Source of the DNA: a virus
Reading direction: 5' to 3' (one strand)
DNA length: 23,611 nucleotides
Virus record (IMG/VR): IMGVR_UViG_3300025276_000219
Coordinates: 1-23,611 of that record
Shown here one piece after another: positions 3,301 to 22,535 of this stretch (positions are counted from its first letter, which is position 1; every line of letters starts with the position of its first letter). Below the pieces are notes generated by a model. The model saw nothing but the letters and a program-made list of their open reading frames with translations, made no database searches and was not told the origin of the DNA. The translations under genes were made by a program, and so were the position numbers.

Positions 3301-4156
3301 AAACGATGGGTATAAGGATTACGAAAGAGGTATAATACATTTTAAAGCAGCTTTGAGTTCTTTTGATGAAGTAACCTACATTGACTGGAACTCTCCAACA
3401 GGTTCTTTTCTATGGGAAGTACAAGATAAACTTCCGGAGACAGGTAAGCTTAAGCATTTTGTTATACCTCCTCATGTAGTAGAGTACATAGTTCCTGTAG
3501 AAGATGCTCAACTGTGTAACGAATCTCTAAGTAGAAACATTGGAATAAGACGTTCAGAATGTGATTGGATAGTATCTACTAACATAGACATTATTCCTCC
3601 TAAGAGAGAGGACCTATTAAAGCTTATTGCAGGACTGGATAAGGATACCTTCTATACTATCTCCAGACGAGAAGCACCAAAGGATGTAGTATACAAATAC
3701 GGACATGAGAAGTTTGAAGAGCTAAGAGATGAACTCTATAACACCATACCTGAAAGAAGGTTTCCTGCTAAAGTTACTCATAACGATGAGTTCAGTTTAA
3801 TTAACTGCTGTGGTGATTTTCAAATAGCTCATAAAGATGTATGGAATAAGATTAGAGGCTTTGAAGAGAGGATGCACTATGCATGCTTTGTAGATACTAA
3901 CGTACAAAAGAAAGCTGTACTTAATGGGTTTAAGTTAGTAGACTTATATGATCCACCTTTATTTCATATGGAGCATGGAGCTTACTACACTAAGGCTGAT
4001 GGAAGCAGAGTACAGGACGAAGAAAACAAAGGAGCACATACAGGAGACGCAAAAGCATACAATAATGTTTATGAATGGGTTGAGATCTTTTCAGCAACAA
4101 GAAACGATGAGTCATGGGGCTTATCAGAAACAACAATAGATTTCGAAAATTTTTAA
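3272..4156 (+). CDS. Glycosyltransferase-like protein
   Basis: This 294-aa protein has a GT-A/family-2-like look: an N-terminal VVVNRNDGYKDYERG, IDWNSPTGSFLWE, and STNIDIIPPKREDL, where NIDI takes the place of the metal-binding DxD. The second half, with CCGDFQIAHKDVWNKIRGFEE, DTNVQKKAV and LFHMEHG, matches the acceptor-side part of glycosyltransferase-2-like proteins. It starts inside the previous gene and is the last member of the sugar cassette. It is inferred to transfer the deoxy sugar made by the upstream enzymes onto a host or virion glycan; the acceptor is unknown. Confidence 0.7.
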   Translation: MKIGSVVVNRNDGYKDYERGIIHFKAALSSFDEVTYIDWNSPTGSFLWEVQDKLPETGKLKHFVIPPHVVEYIVPVEDAQLCNESLSRNIGIRRSECDWIVSTNIDIIPPKREDLLKLIAGLDKDTFYTISRREAPKDVVYKYGHEKFEELRDELYNTIPERRFPAKVTHNDEFSLINCCGDFQIAHKDVWNKIRGFEERMHYACFVDTNVQKKAVLNGFKLVDLYDPPLFHMEHGAYYTKADGSRVQDEENKGAHTGDAKAYNNVYEWVEIFSATRNDESWGLSETTIDFENF

Positions 4157-6216: not shown

Positions 6217-6822
6217 ATGAAATATTTAATTGGACTAACAAGTAAATTTGTTGGATTGTTACTAATTGTATCCCTATTGGTAGCGTTTAGCACTTACCGT
6301 ACTCGACTTATTAAAGTAGTACCATTAGAATTATCAATCAAACCTGCTGTGGTAACTATAGTAGTTCCAGAAATTAAACCAGTAGAGATAATAATTGCAA
6401 CGAATAGACATGAAGACTTTCTAAATGCCATTGGGTTTAAAGAATCTGGTAACCGGTACGATATTGTTAATAGGTTCGGCTATATGGGAAGATACCAATT
6501 TGGTAAACGTACTCTTAGGTGGTTAGGGTTTAAAATGTCTAAAGAAGAGTTCTTAAACTCTCCTAGAATTCAGGAAGAAGCAATGCATACGTTACTAACT
6601 GCTAATAAAAAATCACTTCAAAAGTATATTGATAAGTACGGTGGAACATATCATAATGGAATACTGGTAACTGAATCAGGTTTACTAGCAGCAGCACATT
6701 TAGGAGGTTCCGGAAGCGTACGTAAATGGTTTAGGACTGGTAAGATTAGAAAAGATGGTAACGGAGTAAAAATTACTACTTACATGACAAAGTTTTCTGG
6801 TTATAAGTTGGTACTTCCCTAG
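6217..6822 (+). CDS. Membrane-anchored lysozyme/lytic transglycosylase-like protein
   Basis: Residues 9-25 form a hydrophobic signal anchor after a short basic start. A ~40-residue linker rich in Val, Ile and Pro follows. The catalytic-type domain runs from about residue 65: FLNAIGFKESGNRY with the presumed catalytic Glu76, GYMGRYQFGKRTL (88-100), then AAAHLGGSGSVRKWF (158-172). The order E-S-G-x-Y, G-x-Y-Q-F and AAH-L-G-G is that of goose-lysozyme/SLT-like muramidases. It likely cleaves peptidoglycan from the periplasmic face at lysis or infection. The start is set by the AAAGGTT motif directly before ATG 6217. The next promoter lies in its 3' end. Confidence 0.82.
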   Translation: MKYLIGLTSKFVGLLLIVSLLVAFSTYRTRLIKVVPLELSIKPAVVTIVVPEIKPVEIIIATNRHEDFLNAIGFKESGNRYDIVNRFGYMGRYQFGKRTLRWLGFKMSKEEFLNSPRIQEEAMHTLLTANKKSLQKYIDKYGGTYHNGILVTESGLLAAAHLGGSGSVRKWFRTGKIRKDGNGVKITTYMTKFSGYKLVLP

Positions 6823-7767: not shown

Positions 7768-8610
7768 ATGTCAGATGTAATTTTAGATTTAAGTGGTCAG
7801 CAAGAGTACATGACCAAAGCACAGTTAAAGAAAGTATGCCCCTTGGCATTCGCTGAAACTCCAACTAACCCTGAAGTTAGTGGAAAGTATTTATTCGTTA
7901 ATACTGAAACTATAGTAGACGATTTAGATAAATTAGGTTGGCAACCAGTCCAAGCTGCTCAAAGAAAAAGTAGAGGAAAGTCTACTATCTTTAGTAAGCA
8001 TATGGTTGCTTTCCAGAACCCAGGAATTAAGATTAAAGGATCAGATGGAGATGATTCATATCCTAGAATTATTATGACGAACAGTCATGATGGTATGCAA
8101 GCATTTAAATTCTCTGTGGGTATTTATCGTTTAGTTTGTTCTAATGGTTTAGTAATTGCCGATGAAGAGTTTTCTGATTTTAAAATTAAGCATAAAGGAT
8201 ATTCCTTTGAGGAGCTTAGAGGGGTAGTTAATGATGCAGTAGCGGACTTACCTAACAAAGTAGAAGTACTTAATACTATGAAGCAAAGGATACTAACTGA
8301 AGATGAGAAAGCTAAGTTAGCATTAGATGCAATGTTGGTTAGAGCTGGTATTGCACCAGGGTCAGAGAAAGCTAAAGAGTTTAACTATGACGATGCTACA
8401 ATAGAAGATATATTGCAACCTAAAAGATCAGCCGATGAAGGAGATGATTTATGGAGAGTGTTTAATGTAATCCAAGAGAAGATTACTCAAGGAGACTTCC
8501 ATGCAGCTTTAACAGGAGCGAAAGTTAGAAAGGTTCGTAAGATTAAGTCATTCGAAAAAGACTTGAAAGTAAATAAAGAACTTTTTAAACTAGCTACGGC
8601 ACTCGTATAA
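7768..8610 (+). CDS. DUF932 family phage/plasmid protein
   Basis: This 280-aa protein has the DUF932 layout: an N-terminal segment with TNPEVSGKYLFVNTETIVDD, a central region with KHMVAFQNPG and IIMTNSHDG, the hallmark GIYRLVCSNGLVIADEEF (118-135), and a C-terminal helical part (FEELRGVVNDAVADLPNKVE). DUF932 proteins are common in plasmids and tailed phages and have no settled function. It is the first gene of the operon that leads to the T9SS-domain gene and thymidylate synthase. Its start is two codons downstream of a shifted AAAGGTT motif (GGTTATAATATG). Confidence 0.88.
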   Translation: MSDVILDLSGQQEYMTKAQLKKVCPLAFAETPTNPEVSGKYLFVNTETIVDDLDKLGWQPVQAAQRKSRGKSTIFSKHMVAFQNPGIKIKGSDGDDSYPRIIMTNSHDGMQAFKFSVGIYRLVCSNGLVIADEEFSDFKIKHKGYSFEELRGVVNDAVADLPNKVEVLNTMKQRILTEDEKAKLALDAMLVRAGIAPGSEKAKEFNYDDATIEDILQPKRSADEGDDLWRVFNVIQEKITQGDFHAALTGAKVRKVRKIKSFEKDLKVNKELFKLATALV

Positions 8611-8918: not shown

Positions 8919-9290
8919 ATGATGAATAAACTAATAATAGCAATTCTAATAGGAACAACTCTATCAGCTCAGCCTGTTGAACCAATAGATTCATTTGCAT
9001 TGCCTCCTATTCCAACGCTACCACAACCTGAGATTTATGTATTCATACCTAATGTTATAACACCAAATGGTGATGGTATTAATGATAGATTTGAATTGAT
9101 ACTACAACCTAACTATAAAGTTGTAATAAAGGTATACTCAAGATGGGGTAATTTAATTTATAAATCAGATGACTATCAGAATGATTACTCAGCAATGGGT
9201 GTTTCAGATGGTGTTTATGCATTCCATGTTCGTGTTTACGATGGGAATAGATATAGAGATTTTAATAAGATGATAACAATAATAAAATAA
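8919..9290 (+). CDS. Secreted miniprotein made of a T9SS type B (gliding-motility) C-terminal sorting domain
   Basis: Residues 1-17 are a signal peptide (hydrophobic core KLIIAILIGTTL, likely cut after SAQ/SA). A ~20-residue Pro-rich spacer follows, and the rest is one domain, residues 40-123. Key motifs are VFIPNVITPNGDGINDRFEL (41-60), IKVYSRWGNLIYKS (70-83), DGVYAFHVRVYDGNRYRD (97-114) and the closing strand KMITIIK. This is the gliding-motility-associated/CHU_C-like domain that targets exoproteins to the Bacteroidetes type IX secretion system. Normally it ends very large adhesins or enzymes; here there is no cargo. It may occupy the T9SS translocon or sortase, or act as a surface decoy; this is inference. 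The start is the first of two ATGs, next to the ACAAGTT motif. Confidence 0.88.
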   Translation: MMNKLIIAILIGTTLSAQPVEPIDSFALPPIPTLPQPEIYVFIPNVITPNGDGINDRFELILQPNYKVVIKVYSRWGNLIYKSDDYQNDYSAMGVSDGVYAFHVRVYDGNRYRDFNKMITIIK

Positions 9291-9490: not shown

Positions 9491-9849
9491 TGGTTAAAGT
9501 TACTGATTTACTTTTAGGTATCAGCTGCTTTACAGTAGCTCATGTTCTTACTTTCTTTCAATTAAATGGTCAATTTCTTAAGACAGATTGGTTTAGAAAG
9601 AATGAATTCTTAGTTGCAGCAGCAGGAATTATCCTATCTTATTTCTATATTTGGGGAACTAAGTATACTGTTTCCGGAACCGATAGTTTACTTTGGCCTG
9701 CTAGATTTATAGGCTTTGGTGTTGGTATGGTAATTTATGCTGGGTTTGTCAGTTACTTCTTTAAGGAAGGGTTTACTTCAAAAACATTAGTTAGTTTGAT
9801 ACTAGCATTAATATTAATCTGCGTACAAGTACTATGGAAAACAAGTTAG
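9490..9849 (+). CDS. Integral membrane protein, four predicted helices (119 aa)
   Basis: Hydrophobic segments lie at about residues 6-25 (LLLGISCFTVAHVLTFF), 41-56 (LVAAAGIILSYFYIW), 72-90 (ARFIGFGVGMVIYAGFV) and 99-115 (LVSLILALILICVQVLW). It looks like a compact four-helix membrane protein with no recognised family. It could be involved in membrane remodelling or exclusion. It overlaps thymidylate synthase by 16 bases and so is translated with it. Confidence 0.72.
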   Translation: MVKVTDLLLGISCFTVAHVLTFFQLNGQFLKTDWFRKNEFLVAAAGIILSYFYIWGTKYTVSGTDSLLWPARFIGFGVGMVIYAGFVSYFFKEGFTSKTLVSLILALILICVQVLWKTS

Positions 9850-10853
9850 ATAAAGATTACCAATTATTACTTGGTTACATTCTAGGTAACGGTAGTGAAA
9901 AAGCAGATAGAACAGGCACAGGTACTGTATCTATATTCGGATGTCAGATAAGACATGAAATGTCAGATGGTTTTCCTCTTCTCACTACTAAGAAGATGGC
10001 AGTTAAGACTATGATGACTGAATTGAAGTGGTTCCTTAAAGGGGATACTAACATTAAGTACTTAGTTGAGAATGGATGTAAGGTATGGAATGGTGATGCT
10101 TATAAGAAGTATAAAGAAAACGGTGGTAAATTAGAAACTGAGGTTGAGTTTATAGATAAGATTAAAGGATGTGATAAGTTTGCTTCTAAGTGGGGTGAGT
10201 TAGGACCTATATACGGTAAGCAATGGAGAGATTGGAACGGAAAAGACCAAATCAAAGAACTTATTAAAAACTTAAATGAGAACCCTGATAGTAGAAGATT
10301 AATGGTATCAGCTTGGAACGTAAGTGAGTTAAGTTCGATGACCTTACCTCCATGTCATTACGGATTCCAAGTTTATACAAGAGAGTTATCTCCAATGGAA
10401 GTATTGGAACAAGCGAAGAAAGATGGTATATGGGATGATGGATCTAGTTTTGATGCTAAAGATGAATTTAGTAAGAATTCTGATGGAGAATTATTCCATG
10501 AATACCTTAGTAGAATTCAATGTGATTATAAAACTAGAGCTATATCTCTAATGTGGAATCAAAGATCTGTAGATACATTCTTAGGTCTTCCTTTTAATAT
10601 TGCATCGTACGGATTACTATTAGAGCTGTTAGCAATACAGGTAAATATGGTACCAGATGAGTTGATAGGTAACTTAGGAGATACTCATTTATATTCTAAT
10701 CATAAAGTACAAGCAGCTAAACAATTGGAAAGAGAAGGATATGACTTACCTAGAATTAAACTATCTAATGTAGATATACTAGAAGGTCAATTTGATTATG
10801 AGTTAATTAATTACAACTATCATCCTACTATCAAAGCAGCGTTAAGTAATTAG
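9834..10853 (+). CDS. thyA: Thymidylate synthase (ThyA type)
   Basis: The enzyme methylates dUMP to dTMP with methylene-THF. All core motifs are seen: ADRTGTGT (24-31), FPLLTTKK (47-54), ELGPIYGKQWRDW (122-134), SRRLMVSAWN, LPPCHYGFQVY (171-181) with nucleophile Cys174, QRSVDTFLGLPFNIASYG with Asn255, and GNLGDTHLYSNH. Asn255 points to dUMP rather than dCMP, although a dUMP hydroxymethylase cannot be excluded. An insertion of about 45 residues (185-232) after the Cys motif makes it 339 aa, longer than the 264 aa of E. coli. The C-terminus is KAALSN in place of the usual APVAV-like tail. The SHMT at the left edge could supply its cofactor. Confidence 0.95.
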   Translation: MENKLDKDYQLLLGYILGNGSEKADRTGTGTVSIFGCQIRHEMSDGFPLLTTKKMAVKTMMTELKWFLKGDTNIKYLVENGCKVWNGDAYKKYKENGGKLETEVEFIDKIKGCDKFASKWGELGPIYGKQWRDWNGKDQIKELIKNLNENPDSRRLMVSAWNVSELSSMTLPPCHYGFQVYTRELSPMEVLEQAKKDGIWDDGSSFDAKDEFSKNSDGELFHEYLSRIQCDYKTRAISLMWNQRSVDTFLGLPFNIASYGLLLELLAIQVNMVPDELIGNLGDTHLYSNHKVQAAKQLEREGYDLPRIKLSNVDILEGQFDYELINYNYHPTIKAALSN

Positions 10854-21789: not shown

Positions 21790-22161
21790 ATGGCAAATTC
21801 AAACACATTCTCAATTACTAGTCAAAGTCAATTCAATGAAACCCTATTATGGATCTCAGACCTATACAAAGATGTATACGGATCTCGTCCTAGAGGATAT
21901 AACTTCAGCAACTTCACATTTAAGGAGTTAACTGAATTCGTTAATGACCTAAGTAACCAACAAGACAAAGATCTTGCCATAGAGAAGGCTTCTGAAATGA
22001 AGTCTCTTAAAGATGTAATGTCCGTAGGTGCTCCTAATAAGAAGACTGCCTTAAGATGGTTAGACCAAGCGGATGCTTACTTCATGTATGGGGATGATGA
22101 CTTCTATGAAGATAGTATAGAAAAGTACGGATGGGTGTCTAAACAGTATGAACTATGTTAG
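21790..22161 (+). CDS. Hypothetical protein (123 aa)
   Basis: It begins MANSNTFSITSQSQFNETLL and continues with DLYKDVYGSRPRGYNFSNFTF, then acidic helices (ELTEFVNDLSNQQDKDLAIE) and a Tyr/Asp-rich C-terminus (DAYFMYGDDDFYEDSIEKYG). The 'DLYKDVYGSRPRGYNF' element resembles a segment common in small phage proteins of unknown function, from memory. It is soluble in appearance. It starts at AAAGGTTATG and overlaps the septoil-knot gene by 7 bases. Confidence 0.75.
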   Translation: MANSNTFSITSQSQFNETLLWISDLYKDVYGSRPRGYNFSNFTFKELTEFVNDLSNQQDKDLAIEKASEMKSLKDVMSVGAPNKKTALRWLDQADAYFMYGDDDFYEDSIEKYGWVSKQYELC

Positions 22162-22535
22162 GTATAAATTTTTCGAGGCAACTTCGCGCGTTTCGCGCGG
22201 CGGCCTTCGGTATTTTCCTCACACTCGCCTTATTCCTCCCTTCCTTTACCTATGCACAAGCTGTCTTTGTAACTGATTATAAACCTGAGGCTGATGTCAT
22301 AGTCTACGTAACTAAGTATAGAGCAGATGCGGACTTGGTTGTTTTCGTAACTAAATACAAATACGAAGCTAACAGTAGTAATGGTATATGGTTTTACGTT
22401 GATTCTAAGTTTAAAAGTGATAAAAAGGTATTTTTTACTAAATATAGAGCCCAATCCGACGTAAAAGTGTACTATACTCACTATAAAAACCAGTCTAAAT
22501 GGAGAAATTCAGAAAAGTTTCATCTTTTTCATTAA
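22155..22535 (+). CDS. Secreted repeat protein of the 7(1) septoil-knot type
   Basis: Residues 1-36 are a signal peptide (basic RQLRAFRAAAF, hydrophobic GIFLTLALFLPSF, cut site AQA). After it come six copies of a ~13-residue repeat with consensus V-x-[FY]-[VT]-T-K-Y-[KR]-x-x-[AS]-[DN]: FVTDYKPEADV, YVTKYRADADL, FVTKYKYEANS, a variant with FYVDSKFKSDK, FFTKYRAQSDV and YYTHYKNQSKW. This repeat is the signature of the small 7(1) septoil-knot (Septknot) family, as I remember it. The mature protein is ~90 aa, basic and Tyr-rich, destined for the periplasm or outside. The signal-peptide DNA contains a GC-rich palindrome, which suggests recent acquisition from a host. Confidence 0.78.
   Translation: MLGINFSRQLRAFRAAAFGIFLTLALFLPSFTYAQAVFVTDYKPEADVIVYVTKYRADADLVVFVTKYKYEANSSNGIWFYVDSKFKSDKKVFFTKYRAQSDVKVYYTHYKNQSKWRNSEKFHLFH
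22172..22211 (-). repeat. GC-rich palindromic element, copy C (inverted relative to A and B)
   Basis: On the minus strand this reads ACCGAAGG, four bases, CGCGCGAA, matching the 3' half of copy A (ACCGAAGG, five bases, CGCGCGAA). CGCGCG-ttt-CGCGCG (22185-22199) makes a strong hairpin. It lacks the G-rich 5' block of A and B, so it is a divergent or partial copy. It lies in the signal-peptide part of the septoil-knot gene. Confidence 0.55.

Follow-up and report, generated by a model that had tools for sequence, protein, structure and literature searches.

Type B proteins of the type IX secretion system (T9SS), such as SprB of Flavobacterium johnsoniae and PG1035 of Porphyromonas gingivalis, carry a signal peptide and a C-terminal CHU_C sorting domain. 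They require a cognate PorP/SprF shuttle, which is usually encoded next door; these shuttles are in short supply and apparently not recycled, and when type B substrates are overproduced their secretion fails because the low shuttle abundance is limiting (PMC12618676). The shuttle is usually, though not always, co-encoded; among 12 in F. johnsoniae, 3 are orphans. Where a protein is localised depends on its sorting domain alone (PMC12618676), and type B sorting domains anchor proteins via PorP-like partners, with SprF retaining SprB at the surface (PMC9143113). In Flavobacterium columnare, phage-resistant isolates carry mutations in sprA, gldM, gldK, gldN and other genes (PMC9233685).

On the phage side, three T9SS type A cargo proteins have been reported in Cryophage, whose authors proposed competition or superinfection exclusion (PMC7468147). 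This was the only case that we found in the open-access literature on phage-borne T9SS sorting domains, which described no cargo-free phage version, and a phage inhibitor of the T9SS was likewise not found in the open-access literature. Superinfection-exclusion proteins, for example the Ltp lipoproteins (PMC3952083), can be small exported phage proteins that alter the envelope met by other phages.

Here we describe a miniprotein gene in a viral DNA of 23,611 nucleotides (the window). Its product shares with the type B proteins a predicted signal peptide, a C-terminal CHU_C domain and the PNGDGxND and RWG motifs; it differs from them in being cargo-free and phage-encoded, in having no shuttle gene in its record and in belonging to a family (family A) that scores under the TIGR04131 cut-off for type B domains. 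As with the Cryophage proteins, a phage gene uses the sorting signal of the host T9SS, whereas those proteins combine type A domains with an enzymatic or PA14 cargo and the miniproteins are cargo-free and CHU_C / type B-like. The likeness to the Ltp lipoproteins lies in a small, presumably exported phage protein that would alter the envelope; there is no known sequence relation between them, and an action via the T9SS is what we infer for the miniprotein. A cargo-free CHU_C domain is not predicted by the view of this domain as an address label on a large exoprotein.

The miniprotein gene in the window

The ORF starts with ATG, ends with TAA and encodes 123 aa. The relevant features of the window are as follows.

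8919..9290, + strand: cargo-free T9SS sorting-domain miniprotein of family A (ORF, PF13585, whole-ORF homologues L002 and L003, dN/dS 0.22-0.35)
8919..8969, + strand: predicted signal peptide, residues 1-17, cleavage between A17 and Q18 by the Q-rule (sequence reading, Q conservation)
8970..9041, + strand: Pro-rich spacer, residues 18-41 (sequence, alignment)
9042..9287, + strand: CHU_C / type B-like sorting domain, residues 42-123 (PF13585, sub-threshold TIGR04131, structure model)
7768..8610, + strand: DUF932 protein, context only (PF06067; by tblastn 65% identical to Flavobacterium phage immuto)
8612..8896, + strand: small membrane protein directly upstream of the miniprotein (ORF lists, similarity by eye)
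9834..10853, + strand: thymidylate synthase, context only (phrog_160, 1.2e-95)

The predicted Sec signal peptide is clear by eye and from Q-rule conservation: the segment MMNKLIIAILIGTTLSA followed by Q is consistent with a Sec signal peptide and with the Q-rule of cleavage in Bacteroidetes (PMC5837995), and Q occupies the position equivalent to Q18 in 9 of 10 aligned phage miniproteins. By alignment, the Pro-rich spacer is not present in the other phage groups. The architecture proposed in the earlier note, a signal peptide, a Pro-rich spacer and a single sorting domain without cargo, is thus borne out by the ORF reading and by PF13585.

The PF13585 (CHU_C) profile matches residues 42-111 with an E-value of 1.2e-14 and 54.7 bits, twice the gathering score of 27. 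The type B profile TIGR04131 aligns over positions 3-56 of its 85 with an E-value of 4.6e-8 and 33.1 bits, just below the NCBIfam cut-off of 35 bits, and the close homologues L002 (31.2) and L003 (32.8) likewise remain under it. The motifs IPNVITPNGDGINDRF, YSRWGN and DGVYAF are all present, as first noted; the description of a full type B pattern was slightly overstated, because the WDG loop (NDYSAM) and the C-terminal G-h-V-t-l-I-R strand (FNKMITIIK) are degenerate in family A. The best PDB match by sequence was the C-terminus of the grappling hook protein GhpA (E 3.7e-12), and searches of PHROGs and PADLOC returned no family for the miniprotein.

Structure prediction agrees with the assignment. 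An AlphaFold2 model built on 39 aligned sequences reached a mean pLDDT of 86, with block means of 86-97 across the domain, and the C-terminal part is modelled as an Ig-like sorting-domain fold. Its best structural matches in the PDB are sorting domains of T9SS proteins solved in complex with the translocon, namely NucA (8glk, Z 9.2), FspA (8glj, Z 8.7) and RemZ (8gl8, Z 8.2) with rmsd 1.9-2.4, followed by PorZ (Z 7.6). Many unrelated generic Ig folds also reach Z 7-8, so the fold supports the T9SS assignment without proving it; the proof comes from the sequence. The titles of 8gl6 and 8glj read 'in vitro assembled ... CTD substrate bound complex', and therefore a (type A) sorting domain without cargo is apparently able to bind.

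T9SS sorting domains are themselves generic Ig-like sandwiches, and the miniprotein could accordingly be a repurposed Ig-like domain, a periplasmic binder of some other target (lysis control, an outer-membrane receptor) whose T9SS link is ancestry. The degenerate strand and loop of family A would fit such a change, as would a 93 aa version (L100) whose lipobox-like LTMSC suggests that it may be membrane-anchored. We consider this improbable, given that the PNGDG motif and an above-cut-off PF13585 match are retained in every miniprotein group scanned.

Conservation and genomic context

Two IMG/VR contigs, L002 (130 kb) and L003 (27 kb), carry homologues of the whole ORF with the same architecture and 85-90% identity. 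The window gene is not the tail end of a virion protein. Pairwise dN/dS among the three is 0.22-0.35, with substitutions mostly at third positions; the miniprotein is a real gene under purifying selection. It is highly unlikely that the gene is what remains of a longer one with cargo, or that it hitch-hikes neutrally: long CHU_C proteins do occur in phages, and some of them are close to family A in the tree, but the signal peptide is fused in frame to the domain, signal peptide and spacer are conserved together with it, the dN/dS is low, and the length is unchanged in phages with different neighbours.

The neighbours are those first stated, a DUF932 protein, two small membrane proteins (by eye) and thymidylate synthase, and the gene is surrounded by nucleotide-metabolism genes and genes of no assigned function. 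A homologue of the upstream membrane protein sits two genes upstream of the L003 miniprotein (3453-3734; by eye). Among 13 miniprotein loci compared for a conserved partner gene, only thymidylate synthase recurs (5/13), so no obligate partner was seen. The nearest cultured phage is Flavobacterium phage vB_FspM_immuto (Immutovirus, 160 kb, host Flavobacterium sp. LMO8), which has a comparable gene run (sugar genes, HNH, DUF932); no CHU_C domain was found in its genome, and the window-type gene is therefore accessory.

Cargo-free copies in other phages

Viral contigs were searched by a PNGDGxND motif scan and by profiles, yielding about 100 distinct viral CHU_C genes. Most of these carry cargo, and the cargo-free ones fall into several groups.

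Group A, window type, 123 aa: window, L002, L003
Group B, 107-110 aa: L093 (149-kb contig), L102, L016, L122, L084, L155, L156
Group C, 108-109 aa: L045, L171
Group D, 93 aa: L100
Group E, 116 aa: 642-kb phage LR756502

Cargo-free miniproteins are thus carried by several different viruses of Bacteroidota (Flavobacterium-type) bacteria. All ten other miniproteins scanned (eight phage, two bacterial) passed PF13585, and four of the eight phage ones (L093, L016, L155 and L278) exceeded the TIGR04131 cut-off with 42.1-46.8 bits. A CHU_C search of the 130-kb and 149-kb contigs found none besides the miniprotein.

The L100 gene is an insert in a tail module, close to a tape-measure gene and opposite in strand; it is flanked by a virion structural gene on one side and by an unclassified gene on the other, a moron-like placement. 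This location, together with the frequency of Ig-like domains on virions, could point to a small Ig-like decoration protein of the virion or tail. Such a role is most improbable: every copy seen has an N-terminal predicted export signal, the L100 copy is on the strand opposite to the tail genes, and the window copy stands among nucleotide-metabolism and unassigned genes.

An apparent tandem pair in L155 was rejected, the upstream ORF being an unrelated lipoprotein with the N-terminal leader alone in common. This leader of about 36 codons (MIANYTDAELKKLMLSIM...NNMKK; L155:4077-4190) also occurs upstream of the miniprotein in L156 and L084; it is followed in frame by the miniprotein in two of these phages and by an unrelated lipoprotein in the third, and it looks like a cassette placed ahead of different exported proteins.

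Bacterial counterparts and origins

In the motif-scan set, cargo-free genes make up 9 of the 69 distinct viral CHU_C genes with a complete 5' end. The bacterial comparison comprised about 204 CHU_C matches from 31 Bacteroidota genomes, among which a single complete cargo-free gene, that of Cryomorpha ignava, was confirmed; the difference (Fisher p 2e-5, with a bacterial count of 206) is only indicative, because the samples were drawn differently and related phages are non-independent. The other short bacterial frames that were checked were truncated at a contig edge, lacked a signal peptide or turned out to be longer genes. The Cryomorpha gene has full-length orthologues in at least 7 further genomes (199 of its order searched) at 40-57% identity. 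With the L093 miniprotein as query, 299 genomes of one family gave no match at 1e-12 in a search without a positive control.

Like the window gene, the Cryomorphaceae-type genes (L288-L293, mostly 126-133 aa) encode a signal peptide and CHU_C alone; they differ in being chromosomal, in their recurring neighbours, in forming their own clade and in their C-terminal strand, which is complete (the TIGR04131 match extends to position 85 of 85). The cargo-free architecture is therefore rare in bacteria, yet not phage-only. The earlier note had suggested that a phage copy with no cargo could jam or occupy the translocon; cargo-free versions on bacterial chromosomes mean that missing cargo by itself implies no inhibitor.

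In a tree of 64 CHU_C domains, groups A, B and C are each supported, the bacterial miniproteins form one clade (100/98) apart from the phage ones, and group A lies near long phage CHU_C cargo proteins (87/76). In the AU test, a single origin of the phage miniproteins was not rejected (p 0.137), and a single origin of all miniproteins, phage and bacterial, was nearly rejected (p-AU 0.063). A repeated origin of the phage genes seems likely from these sequences. The domains nearest to that of the window belong to L069, L071, L072, L188 and similar long phage proteins, which end in a CHU_C domain and, where complete, measure about 690 aa; several of them carry an N-terminal GGDIQYKYVGDSTG motif.

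These data bear on whether the phage gene is an analogue of the bacterial one, doing the same housekeeping job in T9SS regulation, quality control or as a helper. The conserved bacterial orthologues in C. ignava and the at least 7 other genomes, with their recurring neighbours, speak for such a job, but the separate bacterial clade, the closeness of group A to phage cargo proteins and the near, though not actual, rejection of a common origin make this analogy unlikely.

A possible decoy role on the type B route

Our leading interpretation, to which we give a probability of roughly 0.4, is that the miniprotein is a decoy on the host type B route that lowers the display of adhesins or receptors and hence leads to superinfection exclusion. 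After export via Sec and cleavage behind A17, it would fold in the periplasm as an Ig-like sorting domain that carries no cargo. It could then engage SprA, the translocon, or the PorP/SprF-like shuttles, or both; the shuttles, which are scarce, are apparently not phage-encoded. It would titrate type B sites or sit on shuttles at the surface. Through this competition for shuttle or translocon sites, fewer new host adhesins and gliding proteins might be displayed, and competing phages would adsorb less to the infected cell, or progeny less to dying cells. Export, binding, titration and exclusion are all steps that we infer.

The decoy is favoured by the predicted signal peptide joined to CHU_C without cargo, the purifying selection, the further cargo-free groups (one of them, L100, in a moron-like position) and the higher cargo-free share in viral contigs, and the top structural matches to translocon-bound T9SS sorting domains. 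It is also favoured by the zero matches to PorP/SprF (PF11751) in 16 phage records searched, mostly fragments; because many viral contigs are fragments, a shuttle could lie elsewhere in the phage genomes. In Cryomorpha, PF11751 has 16 matches over cut-off, many beside CHU_C genes. Occupation of the type B route fits the published scarcity of shuttles (PMC12618676) and the T9SS mutations in phage resistance (PMC9233685).

Several points weigh against the decoy. Since the architecture also occurs in bacteria, the role may be a non-inhibitory one. A length of up to 235 aa has been reported as necessary for efficient type B secretion (PMC12618676), and the window domain has about 82 aa; the miniprotein may therefore bind without secretion, or bind poorly. 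Surface proteins made before infection would persist, so that blocking new display would be of limited benefit. The sub-threshold TIGR04131 score, the degenerate last strand of family A and the lack of the gene in immuto also count against it. What stands of the first interpretation is a real, conserved phage gene for a cargo-free T9SS sorting domain, with cargo-free versions recurring in several phage groups; the match is to CHU_C and lies slightly under the TIGR04131 type B cut-off.

The miniprotein might instead be secreted by the T9SS and docked on a PorP/SprF-like shuttle, masking a receptor or acting as a small surface protein with the translocon unblocked. Anchoring of type B domains via PorP-like partners (PMC9143113), localisation by the sorting domain alone (PMC12618676) and a domain intact enough for PF13585 agree with this, but the protein is very small for a mask, the published minimal secretion signal exceeds its length and the 16 phage records held no shuttle gene, and we regard surface display as rather unlikely.

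The presence of cargo-free miniproteins suggests that phages may occupy or rewire the host machine for displaying surface proteins, on which other viruses depend. A broader form of the decoy reading, a widespread and repeatedly evolved anti-T9SS class whose cargo-free domains titrate PorP/SprF or plug SprA and stop display and gliding during infection, is possible though doubtful. If the decoy reading is true, the miniprotein would offer a natural means of probing type B sorting and would show phage control over the surface of gliding bacteria, in keeping with the prominence of T9SS genes among Flavobacterium phage-resistance mutations; even if it is false, CHU_C domains that lack cargo occur in phages as well as in bacteria.

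The window also encodes a further small exported protein (22155-22535) with a signal peptide, DUF6150 (PF19647, E 7.9e-22) and repeated FVTKY-like units, and a protein (6217-6822) with a signal peptide or anchor and a transglycosylase-like domain (phrog_27932, E 4.9e-8; SLT sub-threshold).
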